Shown piece by piece: positions 13,193-19,988 of a stretch of 64,000 nucleotides of DNA. Source of the stretch: Pirellulimonas nuda (GTDB lineage Bacteria; Planctomycetota; Planctomycetia; Pirellulales; Lacipirellulaceae); contig NZ_CP036291.1 in the NCBI RefSeq assembly GCF_007750855.1, positions 2,914,001 to 2,978,000 of the forward strand, read 5' to 3'. The translations under genes were made by a program, and so were the position numbers. The number at the start of each line of letters is the position of its first letter. Position 1 is the first letter of the stretch. The notes under the pieces are model-generated. The model was not told the DNA's origin and ran no database searches. It was given only the letters and a program-made list of their open reading frames with translations.

Positions 13193-13611
13193 AGGACTAC
13201 GGCCAGTTGCCGGCGGAACTCCAGCGGGAGGTGCACGCGGTGGTGCAGGAGACCAGGCGTCGCAGCCGTTGGCCGGTGAAGGGGGTCTCGCCGGCGAGCT
13301 ACTACCGTTGGCGGAAGGGGGCAGAGAGGACGGAGTCGCTTCCCCCAGAACCGGCCAAGCCGGTGCAGGCATACGAAGCGACGGACGAGGAGAAGCGTGC
13401 GGTGCGGGCGTACGCCTTGAAGCACCCGGGAATACGCCATCGCGAGCTGGCTTGGCGGATGATTGATGAAGGGGTGGCGTGCCTGAGCATGTCGACGGTG
13501 TACCGGATTCTCAAGAGCGAGAACTTGGTCTGCCCGTGGCGGCGCCGGGCGAAGCGGACCCGGGAGGAAGAGGAGAAGGCGCAGCGGCCCGACGCGGTCT
13601 GGGCGACCGAC
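13177..13611 (+). pseudogene. IS3-family OrfB, truncated by IS21
   Basis: The N-terminal half of an IS3 OrfB in the -1 frame: VSPASYYRWRKG, EKRAVRAYALKHPGIRHREL, VYRILKSENLVCPWRRR and QRPDAVWATD, where the last Asp is the first residue of the DDE triad. At position 13612 the frame runs into the left end of an IS21-family element, and the rest of OrfB (the second Asp and the Glu) is missing. The sequence at the far right end of the IS21 element does not resume OrfB, so a deletion or rearrangement accompanied the insertion. Confidence 0.8.
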
Positions 13612-13779
13612 TGTGAGTGGCATTCGAAAAGTGCAGCGCCCGGCGTTTCGGGCTGGCGCCCGAAAAGTGCAGCGCGCATTGTGCGTTTGGCTTGTTGATT
13701 TGCGAAGCTGAGGGGCAGTTGGAGGGGGCCGCAGGCCCCCTCCGGGTTCCCTTGGCATTCGCCGGTCAGGAAGCGAGGC

Positions 13780-15285
13780 GTGCAGAAAGTGTTGCAAGAC
13801 ATGGAGTTATGGACCGAGCTGCGTCGGCGGGTGCTGACGGGTGAGCTAAGCCGCCGTGAGGCGGCCCGAGAGTACGGGCTGAACTACCCCGCGGTGGCGA
13901 AAGCGTGCGGGCACGTCGAGCCGCCGGGCTACCGGAGCGAGAAGCCGCGTAAGCGGCCCAAGATGGAGAGCTTCTTACCGCGGATCGCAGAGATCTTAGA
14001 AGCGGACAAGAAGGCGCCGAAGAAGCAGCGTCACACGGCCAAGCGCCTGTTTGACCGGCTGCGAGAAGAAGTAGCCTTCGACGGCAGCTACGAGAGCGTG
14101 AAGGAGGCGGTCCGGGAGTGGCGCCAGGGGAGCCAAGAGGTCTTTCTGCCGCTGTCGCACCCGCCGGGCGAGGCGCAGGTCGATTTCGGCTACGCGTATG
14201 TCGACCTGGCCGGCGAGCGTGTGCAGGTAGCGCTGTTCGTGATGACGCTCCCCTACTCGGACGCGTTGTTCATCCAGGCGTTCCCCAGAGAATGCACGGA
14301 GTCGTTCCAGGAAGGCCACAAGCGGGCCTTCGAGTTCTTCGGGGGAGTACCCAAGCGGATCAGCTACGACAACAGCCGCGTCGCGATCGCGAAGATCACC
14401 GGCCCGCGCGACCGAGAACGGACGCGGGAGTTCTTGCGGCTCGAGAGCCACTACCTGTTCCGCTCGCACTTCTGCCTGGTGCGTCGGGCGAACGAGAAGG
14501 GGAAGGTCGAGGGGCTGGTCGGCTTCGGGAGACGCAACTTCTTGGTCCCTGTGCCGAGGGTCGACTCGCTCGAAGCCCTGAACGAGGAGCTCTTGGCACG
14601 CTGCGAGCAAGACCTCGGCCGGACGCTCCGCGGCAAGAGCGGCCCGAAGCAGGAGCTGCTTAAGGAAGACCAGGCAGCGATGCTGCCGCTGCCGCGCCAG
14701 CCGTTGGACGCCCGCAGGGTCACCCAGGCTTCGGCTTGCGGGCTGTCGCTGGTGTCGTTCGACACGAACCGCTACAGCGTGCCGGTGGCGCACGCCAGGC
14801 GGCCGATCACCGTGGTCGCCTCGGTGGACGAGGTGCGGCTCATTGATAGCGGCAAGCTCGTGGCGAAGCATCCACGCTCGTGGAAGCACGGACAGGACAT
14901 CTACAACCCGGTCCACTACCTGGCCCTGCTGGAGAAGAAGCCGGGGGGCTTCGACCACGCCAAGCCGCTGGAGGACTGGGCGTTGCCCCCTTGCTTCGAC
15001 CAGCTGCGGCGGCTGTTGGAGGCAGACGGCCTGGGGACGCGCGAGTACATCCGCGTCCTGCGGCTGCTCGAGCGCTTCGAGCTGAAGCAGCTCGAGGGCG
15101 CGGTTGAGTATGCGCTCGATATCGGAGTGATCGACGCCGACGCCGTGCGGGTGATCGCCGAACACCGCCGCGAAGAGCCGCTGGCGCTATTCTCGCTCGA
15201 TGGGCGGCCGCACCTGCGCACCGTGGAGGTCGAGACGACCCGGGTGGCGGCCTACGGCGTGCTTCTGACGGAGGGACGATCATGA
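13780..15285 (+). CDS. istA: IS21-family transposase IstA
   Basis: A 501-residue IstA. An N-terminal helix-turn-helix (LRRRVLTGELSRREAAREYG) is followed by PPGYRSEKPRKRPKMESFLP, then the rve-type integrase core with GEAQVDFGYAYVDL (first catalytic Asp), ISYDNSRVAIAKI (second Asp region) and RRANEKGKVEGLVGFGRRN with the catalytic Glu. The C-terminal Mu-transposase-like domain follows. The frame opens with GTG at 13780; an ATG at 13801 is an alternative start. The stop overlaps the istB start by ATGA (15282-15285). It appears intact. Confidence 0.93.
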   Translation: MQKVLQDMELWTELRRRVLTGELSRREAAREYGLNYPAVAKACGHVEPPGYRSEKPRKRPKMESFLPRIAEILEADKKAPKKQRHTAKRLFDRLREEVAFDGSYESVKEAVREWRQGSQEVFLPLSHPPGEAQVDFGYAYVDLAGERVQVALFVMTLPYSDALFIQAFPRECTESFQEGHKRAFEFFGGVPKRISYDNSRVAIAKITGPRDRERTREFLRLESHYLFRSHFCLVRRANEKGKVEGLVGFGRRNFLVPVPRVDSLEALNEELLARCEQDLGRTLRGKSGPKQELLKEDQAAMLPLPRQPLDARRVTQASACGLSLVSFDTNRYSVPVAHARRPITVVASVDEVRLIDSGKLVAKHPRSWKHGQDIYNPVHYLALLEKKPGGFDHAKPLEDWALPPCFDQLRRLLEADGLGTREYIRVLRLLERFELKQLEGAVEYALDIGVIDADAVRVIAEHRREEPLALFSLDGRPHLRTVEVETTRVAAYGVLLTEGRS

Positions 15286-15635
15286 GCAAGACCGAAACCA
15301 AGAGCACGGTGCTGGTCAAGCACCACCTCAAGACGCTCAAACTGCCGACGATGCACGCCGAGTGCGAGAAGACCGCGGCGCGGGCCGCCCAGGAGAACCT
15401 CGACCACCTGGCGTACCTGCTCTCGCTCTGCGAGCTGGAGCTGGTCGACCGTGAACGCCGCGCCGCCGAGCGGCGGCTCAAGGCCGCCAGGTTCCCGGCG
15501 ACCAAGACGCTCGACGAGTTCGACTTCGCGGCCAGGCCATCGATCAACAAGCCCTTGGTCTTGGAACTAGCCAAGGGGGACTGGATCGACAAGCGCGAAA
15601 ACCTGTTGCTGGTTGGTCCGAGTGAGACCGGCAAA
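15282..15635 (+). pseudogene. istB: istB, 5' part, interrupted inside Walker A
   Basis: The first 118 codons of IstB, the ATPase helper of IS21 transposition: LVKHHLKTLKLPTMHAECEK, then LIESxLxLE-like helices, and NLLLVGPSETGK. The reading frame is cut exactly after the GGC AAA codons (Gly-Lys) of the P-loop. The continuation, THLGIALAMAACLAGRKVRF, lies 3.8 kb downstream at 19426. Joining 15282-15635 with 19426-19848 gives 259 codons including the stop (258 residues), the normal IstB length. The P-loop itself reads GPSETGKT where IstB normally has GPSGTGKT, so the second Gly is Glu. Confidence 0.9.
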
Positions 15636-16008
15636 CCTCAACCACCGCAGTACCCCTCTGGTCACAGAGGTATGCGCGGGCGAAATCACCGTTACCGATC
15701 CCAAGCATCCGCTGTTCGGCAAAACGTTCAAGCTTTCCGGGCTTGCGACGCTGCCGGGGCACGTGCGGCATTGCCACGTTGAGCTTCGCAGCGGCTGTTA
15801 TGGCTACGTCGCCATTGCTAGCACGAATCTGGCCCCGACATCGACCTTCTCCGATCCGGAATCGATCTTGACCGCTGAGGCGATTGGCAACCTCGTGGCA
15901 CTGTTCCAGTCAGTGTCCACCAAGAAGAGGTCCAAGCGTGAGCCTCATTCGAAGTCAAAGCCTGTGGCGGGAGCTACCGCCCGACGTGCAACGCGCCGTG
16001 GCCAATGA
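15613..16008 (+). CDS. DUF5372-like small protein of recombinase element
   Basis: An open frame whose element-encoded part reads GEITVTDPKHPLFGKTFKLS, then HVELRSGCYGYVAIASTNL and a basic C-terminal tail (KKRSKREPHSKSK). The TVTDPxHPLFG opening resembles the small DUF5372-type proteins found directly upstream of serine recombinases. The open frame begins inside istB at 15613, before the element, so the natural start must be inside the element or provided by the circular form; I cannot fix it. Its function is unknown. A role with the recombinase, for example directionality or regulation, is only suggested by position. Confidence 0.5.
   Translation: MVRVRPANLNHRSTPLVTEVCAGEITVTDPKHPLFGKTFKLSGLATLPGHVRHCHVELRSGCYGYVAIASTNLAPTSTFSDPESILTAEAIGNLVALFQSVSTKKRSKREPHSKSKPVAGATARRATRRGQ
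15630..15642 (+). repeat. Left attachment junction (attL) of serine-recombinase element
   Basis: GGCAAA (istB Walker A codons) followed by CCTCAAC, the left inner end of the element. The same GGCAAA occurs at the right junction. The crossover dinucleotide of a serine integrase would most simply be the central AA of CAAA, which is non-palindromic and so would fix orientation. The exact crossover point is inferred. Confidence 0.75.
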
Positions 16009-16180
16009 AGTTTGCCGGATTCTCATGGAGGAGATTCACGATGTACGGATCGATCAAGATTCAAACGACGCACTTGAGCCGGCCAGGGATTGTCTATCTG
16101 CGCCAATCCGACCCCAAGCAAGTGCGCGAGAATCGCGAGAGCGCGATCAATCAACGTGCGCTCAAGGAGCGGTTGCTTGA
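15938..16180 (+). CDS. Small ORF upstream of the recombinase
   Basis: A GTG-initiated frame of 80 codons overlapping both the preceding ORF and the recombinase start: SLIRSQSLWRELPPDVQRAV, then ANEVCRILMEEIHDVRIDQD. The first 40 residues look like a real, helix-forming small protein; the part after about residue 45 overlaps the recombinase gene in another frame and looks less protein-like. I do not recognise a family. It may be a translational coupler or a small partner of the recombinase. Confidence 0.35.
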   Translation: MSLIRSQSLWRELPPDVQRAVANEVCRILMEEIHDVRIDQDSNDALEPARDCLSAPIRPQASARESRERDQSTCAQGAVA

Positions 16181-16843
16181 TCTGGGTTGGAAGACCGGCC
16201 AAGTCGAAGTCGTCGATGGCGATCAAGGTATTTCTGCGAAGCACGCCGAAGGTCGAGAGAGCTTTCAGAAGCTCGTCGCCGACGTCGGCCTGGGCAAGAT
16301 CGGCATCATCGTTGGTTACGAGGTCTCACGACTGGCGCGCAACTGCGCTGATTGGCACCGCCTGCTGGAGCTCTGCGCGCTCTCAGACACCTTGATTGGA
16401 GACAGCGATGGCGTCTACAGTCCTAGAGATTTCAACGATCGCCTACTGCTGGGGCTCAAGGGCACGATGAGCGAAGCGGAGTTGCACAGCATTCGCCTAC
16501 GGCTCAACGCCGGCCGCCTCTCTAAGGCGAAGCGCGGCGAGTTGGTTCATCACGTACCGACGGGATACGTTCGACTAGAAACAGGCGAAGTGATCGTCGA
16601 CCCCGACGCAAGCATCACCGATCGCATCAAGCTCGTGTTCACCAAGTTCGATGAAGTTGGCTGCGGCTCTCAATTGCTGAAGTGCTTCGTGGAGGATCAG
16701 CTAAAGCTTCCGCGTCGACAAACGTCCGGCTTGTATGCTAATGAAGTGCTTTGGAAGCCTCCCACGCTCTCGGCGATCCATTCGATCCTGAAGAACCCCG
16801 CGTACGCCGGCGCGTTCGCCTACGGTCGACGTCAGGGCGTCCC
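16041..16843 (+). pseudogene. Large serine recombinase, N-terminal part
   Basis: The N-terminal 267 codons of a large serine recombinase. The start at 16041 (MYGSIKIQTTHLSRPGIVYL) follows GGAG about ten bases upstream. YLRQSDPKQV holds the predicted catalytic Ser (residue 23). IIVGYEVSRLARNCADWHRL is the conserved resolvase segment, with MSEAELHSIRLRLNAGRL after it. The Recombinase domain begins (LKNPAYAGAFAYGRRQGVP) and is cut by an ISAs1-type element. The 10-bp duplication AGGGCGTCCC flanks that IS. Joining 16041-16843 with 18132-19398 gives 690 codons in frame, so the split is a clean recent insertion. Confidence 0.9.
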
Positions 16844-18121
16844 CAGGGCAATCGCATCTAACCCCGAACGAGGAGCATTGTTGCGTCGTATTGCTTGGAG
16901 TCTAGTGGGTCGGCGGAGCCGGCCCGGCGGTAGCATTCCTAGCACGGAGGTCGGAGCATGGCGTCTGCACAGGTTCCTGTAATTCTTACACACTTCGAGG
17001 AGCTGACCGATCCACGTTTGGATCGGACGAAGCAGCACCGTTTGGGCGATATGGTGGCCATCGCGATCTGCGGGGCGATCTGCGGCGCCGACACGTGGGC
17101 CGATGTGGAGCGGTTCGGCCGCGAGAAGATCGAGTGGTTCCGCACGTTCTTGCGTCTGGAGAACGGCGTCCCCTCGCACGACACGTTCGGCCGGGTGTTC
17201 GCGATGCTCGACACGTCCGAGTTCTACAACTGCTGCTGAAAGTCCGCCGTAGGCGGGGCGAACTGGGTCGCCAGCCTGCAGCTCGACCTGAAGGGGAAGA
17301 CCGTCGCGATCGACGGGAAGACGCTCCGCAGGTCGCACGACAAGTCGGTCGGACGCTCGGCGCTGCACGTGGTCAGTGCGTGGGCGACCGACCTGGGGGT
17401 GTCGATCGGGCAGCTTGCGACCGAGGAGAAGTCGAACGAGATCACCGCGGTTCCCAGGCTTCTTGAGATGCTGGCGATCGAGGGGGCGGTGGTCACCCTC
17501 GACGCGATGCACTGTCAGAAGGAGACCGCCCGAGCGATCCGCAATCGCGACGCCGACTACGTGCTGCAGGTCAAAGCCAACCAGCCCACGGTGCACGACG
17601 AGCTGCAAGAGCTGTTCATCAAGTACGGCGACGCCGACTACCGTGGGGTGCGTCGGCACGCGACCGTTGAGAAGAACCACGGGCGCGAGGAACGGCGGGA
17701 ATACTACGTCGCGCCCGCGCCGGAGTCGCTCAGCCGCAACTGGCGCGATGTCCGCTCGGTCGGCATGGTTTACCGCTGCCGCGAAGTGAAGGGGGAAGAG
17801 AGCCGCGAGGTGTCGTTCTTCGTCAGCAGCCTCCCGCCGAAAGTGCGGGCCTTGGCCAAGCATGTGCGGGGCCACTGGGGGGTGGAGAACGCGCTGCACT
17901 GGTCGCTGGATGTAACTTTTTCAGAGGACCAGAGCCGCATCCGCAAGGGCCACGGCCAAGAAATTTGCTCTGGACTTCGCCGTCTGGCGCTCTCGATCCT
18001 CAAGCAGGACACTACCCTCCGTGAGAGTCTACGCGGCAAACGTCTCCGCGCAGGGTGGAATAACGCCACGCTTCAGAGGATTCTCTCGGGGAATGCCGCG
18101 TGATTAGATGCGATTGCCCTG
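16844..18121 (+). mobile_element. ISAs1-family element (distinct type) inside the recombinase
   Basis: A 1278-bp element with inverted repeats CAGGGCAATCGCATCTAA at both ends and a 10-bp target duplication. Its transposase is clearly different from that of copies A-C, though of the same family. The transposase frame carries one in-frame stop. Confidence 0.88.
16958..18103 (+). pseudogene. ISAs1-family transposase with one in-frame stop
   Basis: A 381-codon frame in one phase, broken by TGA at 17237-17239. Before it: ILTHFEELTDPRLDRTKQHR and NGVPSHDTFGRVFAMLD. After it: [17 protein letters not shown] (catalytic Asp), VVTLDAMHCQKETARAI, and VRGHWGVENALHWSLDVTFS with the catalytic Glu. Compared with copies A-C there are about eight extra codons at the stop. 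They coincide with a short palindrome CCGCC-GTA-GGCGG, so the defect looks like a small in-frame insertion carrying a stop and not a point mutation. The element is probably no longer autonomous. Confidence 0.85.
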
Positions 18122-18131
18122 AGGGCGTCCC

Positions 18132-19398
18132 TGCCAAGCAGATTCCCGGACGGCCGGCGGCCGGTCGGATTCGCCAAGACCGTGGCGCCTGGTTGGCGTT
18201 GGTGAAAGACGTCTATCCGGCCTTCATTTCGTGGGATAAATGGGAGCAGATTCAAGCAAAACTAGCGGAAAACCACCGTACGATGCAGTCACGATTCACC
18301 CGCCGCGACGCCTCCCGCAAAGGTGCATCGCTGCTGGCGGGACTGGTTCGCTGTGGCAAGTGTGGCCATGCCATGCGGGTGGCCTACAAAGACAAGCGGT
18401 TCCAATACCTATGCTCGAAGTTGCAAGGCGAGTTGCGTCAGGAGGCTTGCCAATACCTGTCCGGAAAACGAATCGATGAGGTGGTTGTCGCTGAGTTCCT
18501 CTCCGCCATCGCTCCCGCCAATATCGATGCGTTGCAGGCGGCGACCGACCGGCAGCTCGTCTCTCACCACGACCAGCTCAAGCATCTTCGGCAAGACGTT
18601 CAGCGGCTCAGCTACGCCGCGACACGCGCGGAACGACAATACAACCATGTCGATCCAGAGAATCGCTTGATCGCCGCTTCACTGGAACGTCGATGGGAGC
18701 AGGCGCTGGAAGAACTTGAACACGCTCGCCAAATACTCGGTGATCGACAAACCGATCCACCACGCCTAGTGAAGGTGTCGGCGCGAGATCGCAAAGCATT
18801 TTCAGATGTCGGCAAGCAACTGCCAAGCATATGGGGTGATCTGTCGATTGAATCTCGCAAAGCGTTGCTGCGGACGCTCGTAACGGGAGTCAACCTTGAT
18901 CGGGGCGATGATGGAATCGTGAAGGTGTGCATCGTTTGGCGAGGCGGACTCGTGACGCAGACTGAACAGGCGGTGCCGATTCATTCTCGTCGCTACGGAG
19001 AGCTCGAACAACGAGTGGTCAAACGAGTTCGTGAACTCAACGAGACGGGCGCCAAGACGGACGAGATCTTATCGTGTCTTAATGGCGAAGGCTTCTTCCC
19101 GTGTCGCGGTGGCCAGTTTACAACCGGGATTGTGATGAAGCTCAAGCATCGCTACGGAATCACGTCGAAGCTGGAGGCACTTCGCCAAGGTAATCAACCA
19201 CCGCACAAATGCACCACCGATCAGATTGCCGAGGAAGTCGGAGTCAAACGCGAATGGATTTATCGTAAGATCAGCCGCGGAAAGATCCGAATAGAGAAGG
19301 ATGATGTCTACGGTTGTTACCTCTTCCCGCGGACCAAACTGGCGGTTCGTGAGCTACGGCGCCTCAAGGAAGGAAAGTGCGCGCATGTCTCGTTCTAA
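18132..19398 (+). pseudogene. Large serine recombinase, C-terminal part
   Basis: The remaining 422 codons of the recombinase, continuing as AKQIPGRPAAGRIRQDRGAW and LVKDVYPAFISWDKWEQIQA, the end of the Recombinase domain. A zinc ribbon follows (LVRCGKCGHAMRVAYKDKRF) with further Cys residues about 20 residues on, then a long coiled coil (about 18560-18780). The C-terminus is a helix-turn-helix-like segment (TDQIAEEVGVKREWIYRKIS). Joined to the N-terminal part the protein is 689 residues, normal for large serine integrases. Confidence 0.9.
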
Positions 19399-19414
19399 AA
19401 GGAGCATCACGAGA

Positions 19415-19425
19415 GTTGAGGCAAA
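19415..19425 (+). repeat. Right attachment junction (attR) of serine-recombinase element
   Basis: GTTGAGG, the inverted partner of the left end, overlapping GGCAAA; the istB sequence ACGCACTTGGGGATC resumes immediately after. Deleting 15636-19425 restores codons Gly-Lys-Thr-His-Leu-Gly of IstB without a change of frame. Confidence 0.75.
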
Positions 19426-19848
19426 ACGCACTTGGGGATCGCGTTGGCGATGGCGGCGTGCTTGGCGGGCCGCAAGGTCCGCTTCTTCCGCGTCACGGAG
19501 CTGATCACCACGCTGCTCGAAGCACGCGACGAGAAGACCCTGTTGCGGCTGCGGTCCCAGCTGGCGAGGCAGGACGTGCTGGTGCTCGACGAGCTGGGCT
19601 ACGTCCCGGCGAGCAAGGCGGGCGCCGAGCTGCTGTTCGACCTGATCGGCCAAGCCTACGAAAGGCAGAGCCTGGTCGTCACCACGAATCTGCCGTTTGA
19701 AAACTGGACCGAGGTGCTCGGGAGTGAGCGGCTCACCGGCGCCACGCTGGACCGGCTGACCCACCGCTGCTCGATCCTCGAATTCACCGGCGAGAGCTAC
19801 CGGCTGCAGGACGCACGCCGCCGAAGCCGAAAGACTACCAAAGCGTAA
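19426..19848 (+). pseudogene. istB: istB, 3' part
   Basis: The C-terminal 140 codons of IstB, resuming at Thr-His-Leu of the Walker A region: THLGIALAMAACLAGRKVRF, then VLVLDELGYVPASKAGAELL (Walker B), and LVVTTNLPFENWTEVLGSER with the sensor Thr-Asn typical of this DnaC/IstB group. The C-terminus is LTHRCSILEFTGESYRL. It is separated from its start by the serine-recombinase element. Confidence 0.9.
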
Positions 19849-19988
19849 CCCAATAGGCCGACGCGGGGAGGCCTGATACCATTCCCCGCAACCAACCAGC
19901 GCTGCACTTTTACGGCGCCGGGCGCTGCACTTTTCGAATACCACTCACAGGCGGGCCGGCTTCGTTGGCTTCTGCTTCTTACCAGGCA

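Follow-up and report, generated by a model that had tools for sequence, protein, structure and literature searches.

A minimal element of the large serine recombinase kind inserted in the Walker A codons of an IS21 istB gene, the probable attB site of its recombinase lineage

In the window, by which we mean the whole 64-kb stretch of DNA analysed, part of a single 6.6-Mb contig whose host is very probably a planctomycete, the istB gene of an IS21-family element is split at the lysine codon of its Walker A motif (GPSETG/KTHL) by an insert that encodes a large serine recombinase (LSR). The insert is very probably a minimal integrative element of the LSR kind, from a recombinase lineage whose attB lies in the Walker A codons of IstB, the helper ATPase of IS21 elements.

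The host IS21-family element (13612..19949; forward strand, as are all features described here) has the ends TGTGAGTGG[C/T]ATTCGAAAAGTGCAGCGC in inverted orientation, with a 24-bp exact inverted match inside matching TGT...ACA ends, and encodes members of the IstA and IstB families. The istA gene (13780..15285) matches the NCBIfam model transpos_IS21 (E = 4e-76). The N-terminal half of istB (15282..15634) matches positions 2–104 of the 238 in the Pfam IstB_IS21 profile and ends in the codon of the Walker A lysine, with the core AA at 15633-15634; the C-terminal half (19423..19848) restarts at the lysine codon of GKTHL and matches positions 102–231 of the IstB HMM. GGCAAA, the Gly-Lys codons of the P-loop that the first-pass annotation had named as the boundary of the insert, is indeed present twice, at 15630-15635 and 19420-19425, and the reconstructed empty site, in which the flanks are rejoined without the insert, gives an open istB reading ...ENLLLVGPSETGKTHLGIALAM... 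with the sequence GPSETGKTHLGIALAM. The rest of the genome contains no intact DNA copy of this IS21 and hence no native empty site for comparison. It is a reasonable inference from the sequence that IstB function is lost through the split in the ATPase and that the host IS is silenced. The left end of the IS21 at 13612 in turn truncates an IS3-like orfB (13207-13611), so that the nest has at least one further outer layer.

The LSR element (15635..19424) is 3,790 bp long with one copy of the AA core. Its recombinase ORF (16041-19398) is itself interrupted, with the break at 16843/18132, by a nested ISAs1-like IS of 1,278 bp (16844..18121) that has the ends CAGGGCAATCGCATCTAA and a DDE_Tnp_1 transposase frame with a stop at 17237. 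This IS is flanked by a 10-bp direct repeat, AGGGCGTCCC, at 16834-16843 and 18122-18131, and copies ~90% identical to it occupy three further genomic loci (L002-L004). When the nested IS and its repeat are subtracted, the LSR element measures ~2,502 bp (~2.5 kb), which is the size of its relatives (2,496-2,628 bp). The order of nesting is thus an ISAs1-like IS within an LSR element within an IS21. Because the IS breaks the recombinase gene, the copy in the window is probably dead and immobile. The first-pass annotation had correctly recognised a serine recombinase element but had overlooked the IS that disrupts its principal gene.

The N-terminal part of the recombinase (16041..16843) contains a Resolvase domain (Pfam PF00239, E = 1.5e-18) with the catalytic motif YLRQS, and residues R21 and S23 are invariant across the eight recombinases compared. 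The C-terminal part (18132..19398) supplies the rest of the Recombinase domain, a zinc ribbon (Zn_ribbon_recom, PF13408, E = 4.7e-10, above the cut-off) and a C-terminal HTH (HTH_17, 8e-5). The Recombinase domain (PF07508) is matched in two halves of 17.7 and 19.7 bits, each under the cut-off of 21.1 because the nested IS splits the domain. The best curated NCBIfam relatives of the two recombinase halves are XisF of the fdxN element and Ccr of SCCmec, which score only ~40 bits against curated cut-offs of 375-700 and differ in their targets. Two small frames lie at the left of the element. ORF1 (15638..16008) is an open frame without an ATG that enters from host sequence, and ORF2 (15938..16180) is a short ORF conserved in the family (35/143 loci) with the consensus WSRLPPALRRQIVEELIAILAEVIHEIRTD. 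Searched singly in Pfam, neither gives a match; the family consensus of ORF1 matches DUF5372 (PF17342, E = 7e-13). A small protein of the DUF5372 family accompanies the recombinase family at 50 of 143 loci, upstream of the recombinase, and DUF5372 is unmentioned in the open-access literature searched. ORF1 is a candidate recombination directionality factor or accessory protein, and one of the two frames may be the directionality factor. Classification as an IME (integrative mobilizable element) was considered and rejected: a Pfam scan of the element ORFs recognises no relaxase, and ORF1, ORF2, the recombinase and the nested IS take up all the available space.

The two ends of the element would each contribute one arm of attP. 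The left end (15635..15660; ACCTCAACCACCGCAGTACCCC) carries a TACCCC motif common to the relatives, and the right end (19399..19424) includes the AA core. The predicted circle junction contains GTTGAGGCAAACCTCAAC and reads ...GAGAGTTGAGGC-AA-ACCTCAACCACCGCAGTACCCC..., and the dyad GTTGAGG-CAAA-CCTCAAC that had been proposed for the circular form is found in it exactly, centred on the inferred AA crossover dinucleotide. Eight perfect dyads with 7-bp arms and a 4-bp loop occur in the window, and the short dyad is therefore weak evidence by itself. Stronger symmetry is seen when the arms are extended outward and imperfect matches are allowed: 15/25 positions match in the predicted attP of the window, compared with a shuffle mean of 7.2 (p = 1.5e-4). 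Among the relatives, values range from 12 to 15/25 (L048, 15/25, p = 5e-4; L053, 13/25, p = 6.5e-4; L050 and L055 are weaker), and the arms are symmetric about the AA core in four of the five relatives whose two ends were compared (p from 5e-4 to 0.05). The attB arms match at only 5-8/25 positions. Palindromy of attP is in itself unremarkable, being the norm for large serine recombinases. The element ends differ among relatives (e.g. GGCTGAGTC/CCTCGCCC), and the exact 7-bp dyad, which the first-pass annotation had offered as a shared signature, is not conserved and must be rejected in that role; what recurs is symmetry centred on AA. Likewise, GGCAAA holds as the repeated boundary in the window, but across all relatives the shared core shrinks to AA, positions one and two of the lysine codon.

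Relatives were collected by scanning a recombinase alignment against 84,980 genomes, which yielded 80 loci, and searches of planctomycete genomes added more; genomes present in two collections (e.g. L083/L195, L102/L189, L103/L196 and L107/L197) were counted once. The nine nearest relatives, by tree or by identity, have recombinases 39-77% identical to that of the window: L081 (77%, over the part present), L184 and L185 (66%, N-terminal part), L047 (56%), L048 (55%), L049 (47%), L050 (43%), L053 (40%) and L055 (39%). They come from Planctomycetota, Chloroflexota and Bdellovibrionota, and all nine split istB at positions 102-108 of the IstB HMM, with the recombinase in the direction of istB. 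Both ends are present in seven of the ten insertions, including that of the window (only one end in L047, L049 and L081). Every available end places the shared AA in the Walker A lysine codon, with GGC-AA-A, GGA-AA-A or GGG-AA-A on the left and a restart at AAR on the right. The clade that includes the window recombinase has seven members (SH 99), all in istB; within the sister clade, L056 interrupts the catalytic-Glu region of an IS481-like transposase. The proposal that the recombinase targets the istB Walker A codons is thus borne out by its nearest relatives.

We envisage that the recombinase would pair the attP of an excised circle with the Walker A attB, cut both with a 2-bp stagger at AA, the first two bases of the lysine AAR codon in GxxxxGK[S/T], and join the ends so that istB is split. 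Excision to a circle is presumed here; the insertions, their precise site, their recurrence and their clade-specific targets are read directly from the sequences. No part of IstB is more conserved than Walker A, so a single specificity would suffice for the IS21 elements of many bacteria, and the cost to the cell would be low because IS21 is dispensable and multi-copy. Selection may have favored such dispensable targets, and the LSR lineages of the broader family may each have settled on a conserved, often catalytic, site in a mobile-element protein.

One question is whether the shared site reflects repeated targeting or a single ancient insertion into istB that was inherited vertically or spread together with IS21 as a unit. 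The presence of istA together with the split istB fits the second possibility. Composites of an IS and an LSR element with their own target duplications, present in Leptolyngbya PCC 7375 and in G937, could also be produced by hitchhiking on the host IS. In Leptolyngbya (L086 and L088), a composite of 3,880 bp occupies two sites with different 8-bp duplications, GTCCTCTC and ATACCCGT, which is compatible both with independent integration of the element into the individual IS copies and with the interrupted IS having transposed in trans. The split istB genes, however, are themselves diverse (GPSETGKTHLGIALAM, GNSGTGKPHLATGLAF, GPPGTGKTHLSLALAN and GATGTGKTFLSCALGY), and an unrelated element in the same genome as the window has entered the Walker A motif of a different istB. 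This second element (L030) has a recombinase that is ~33% identical to that of the window, with a stop in its frame. It is inserted in the opposite orientation at a site 3-9 bp upstream of the window core, where the shared sequence CCCGGAAC corresponds to codons of Pro-Gly-Thr. Its recombinase belongs to another clade, so that targeting of Walker A has at least two origins, provided the tree is correct. We therefore regard one ancestral insertion as an unlikely explanation of the shared site. Two further LSR elements from other clades, L200 (in G861) and L125, lie elsewhere in istB, at HMM positions 58 and 205.

The Walker A target of the window lineage has counterparts in the wider family. 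The flanks of all loci were tested for one gene split across the element, and the residues at the junctions were then read. Group II intron reverse transcriptases are interrupted at motif A (DIxxxFD) in ten loci; DDE_Tnp_1 transposases at the RWxIE or HWGIEN codons (L068, L119, L086/L096, copies in G937 and G873, and three of five in G830); IstA just before KGKVE (L038, L099, L100, L101 and L104); an IS3 transposase at the YNxxRPHSA motif (copies in G307); and IS66 TnpB near its end. Distant clades thus appear to have a fixed site per lineage, with the catalytic-Glu region of IS4, IS5, ISAs1 and IS481 transposases and IstA among the targets. The choice of istB, which the first-pass annotation had considered without described precedent, is therefore characteristic of the nearest relatives but not unique; the possibility it had raised of related elements at unrelated sequences is not seen among the nine nearest, whereas distant clades do use other mobile-element genes. 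Targets could be assigned for about half of the relatives, the rest being on short contigs or lacking a Pfam match (e.g. L036, L077, L080 and L034), and since mobile-element families served as seeds for the target panel, the mobile-element share among all relatives is a biased estimate.

Could the recombinase instead be a generic, low-specificity enzyme of the TndX/TnpX kind, similar to a transposase, for which the istB match is opportunistic? Some members of the family do leak to other sites, as with L085 and with L209 and L213, and more distant clades use other genes. Against this, the nine nearest relatives from three phyla share one codon and one orientation, and target follows tree: mapping 14 target labels onto the recombinase tree requires 14 changes, where the minimum is 13, the shuffled mean is 34.9 and none of 200 shuffles is as low. 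We consider opportunistic insertion very improbable. Assignment to a multi-targeting TndX/TnpX-like clade was likewise rejected, given the single site of all nine nearest relatives and the absence of DUF4368 from the Pfam matches. L209 and L213, members of an identical multi-copy set in G830, lie in genes without a recognised transposase, and the genes interrupted by L085, L217 and L220 have no assigned family. These off-pattern cases indicate that specificity is sequence-based and leaky.

On another reading, the insert would be IS21 cargo, or would resemble an intron or intein in being removed to allow production of IstB. Inteins typically insert in P-loops, and the lysine position is constant, but this reading scarcely merits retention: every frame of the istB reading meets stops within the insert, the reading frame is not kept, no splicing domain is among the Pfam matches of the ORFs (the ground on which both intein and intron were rejected), the direct repeat spans 2-6 bp and L030 has the reverse orientation. 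Restoration of istB by excision at the DNA level could nevertheless occur.

Inteins in P-loops and Tn7 at glmS are familiar cases in which an insertion is directed to the best-conserved codons of an enzyme gene. Inteins splice out and Tn7 leaves the gene intact, whereas the LSR element disrupts istB. The element has the features of LSR elements: a Resolvase domain with the catalytic serine, Recombinase and zinc-ribbon domains, a 2-bp AA core at one site per lineage and an imperfect-dyad attP.

The Resolvase, Recombinase and zinc-ribbon domains are shared with serine integrases such as φC31 and Bxb1 and with the LSR families of Durrant et al. 2022 (PMC10083194), as are an attP with an imperfect dyad around a 2-bp core and insertion at a conserved site of a coding gene. 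The use of conserved gene sites by serine integrases is well known, and diverse LSRs can converge on one gene, as for Mg-chelatase/ATP-dependent protease and prolyl isomerase (PMC10083194). In the sections of that paper drawn on here, the targets given are host genes, without an IS or a transposase among them, and IS21 is absent as a term. The nearest precedent for parasitism of other mobile elements is that of streptococcal IMEs with serine integrases, which sit inside traG, maff2 or snf2 of Tn5252-type ICEs (Coluzzi et al. 2017, PMC5357655). Like the elements described here, they are small, carry a serine integrase and disrupt conserved genes of other mobile elements (12/16 in that study). 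Their targets, however, are ICE conjugation genes and they carry relaxases, whereas here no relaxase is recognised and the targets are enzymes of transposition or retrohoming. Among the open-access papers searched, none describes an LSR that targets the Walker A codons of istB or the active-site codons of a transposase; for a set made up of open-licence papers, this is weak evidence of absence.

The five copies in G830 (L209-L213) are identical over 2,516 bp and the four in G873 (L214-L217) are nearly so, which suggests recent activity of these elements; G937 also has multiple near-identical copies (L204-L208). All three sets should be useful for mapping attB preference, including off-target sites. 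More broadly, the clades offer LSRs whose attB sites are known, differ from one another and lie in protein-coding motifs. As a comparative series they are unusually clean, and they should help to show how LSR specificity shifts and to identify new integration tools.

The element in the window thus looks like a specialised parasite of other mobile DNA. For the family of small LSR elements as a whole, we favor, with more reservation than for the istB lineage itself, a mainly parasitic existence on other mobile elements, in which each lineage keeps to one fixed conserved attB within an IS transposase, IstA/IstB or the reverse transcriptase of a group II intron, in many cases at the codons of the active site, lineages switch among such sites, and the element may also ride its host IS. 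If such elements inactivate transposons at their active-site codons, they would be natural brakes on IS activity, parasites on the parasites of genomes.
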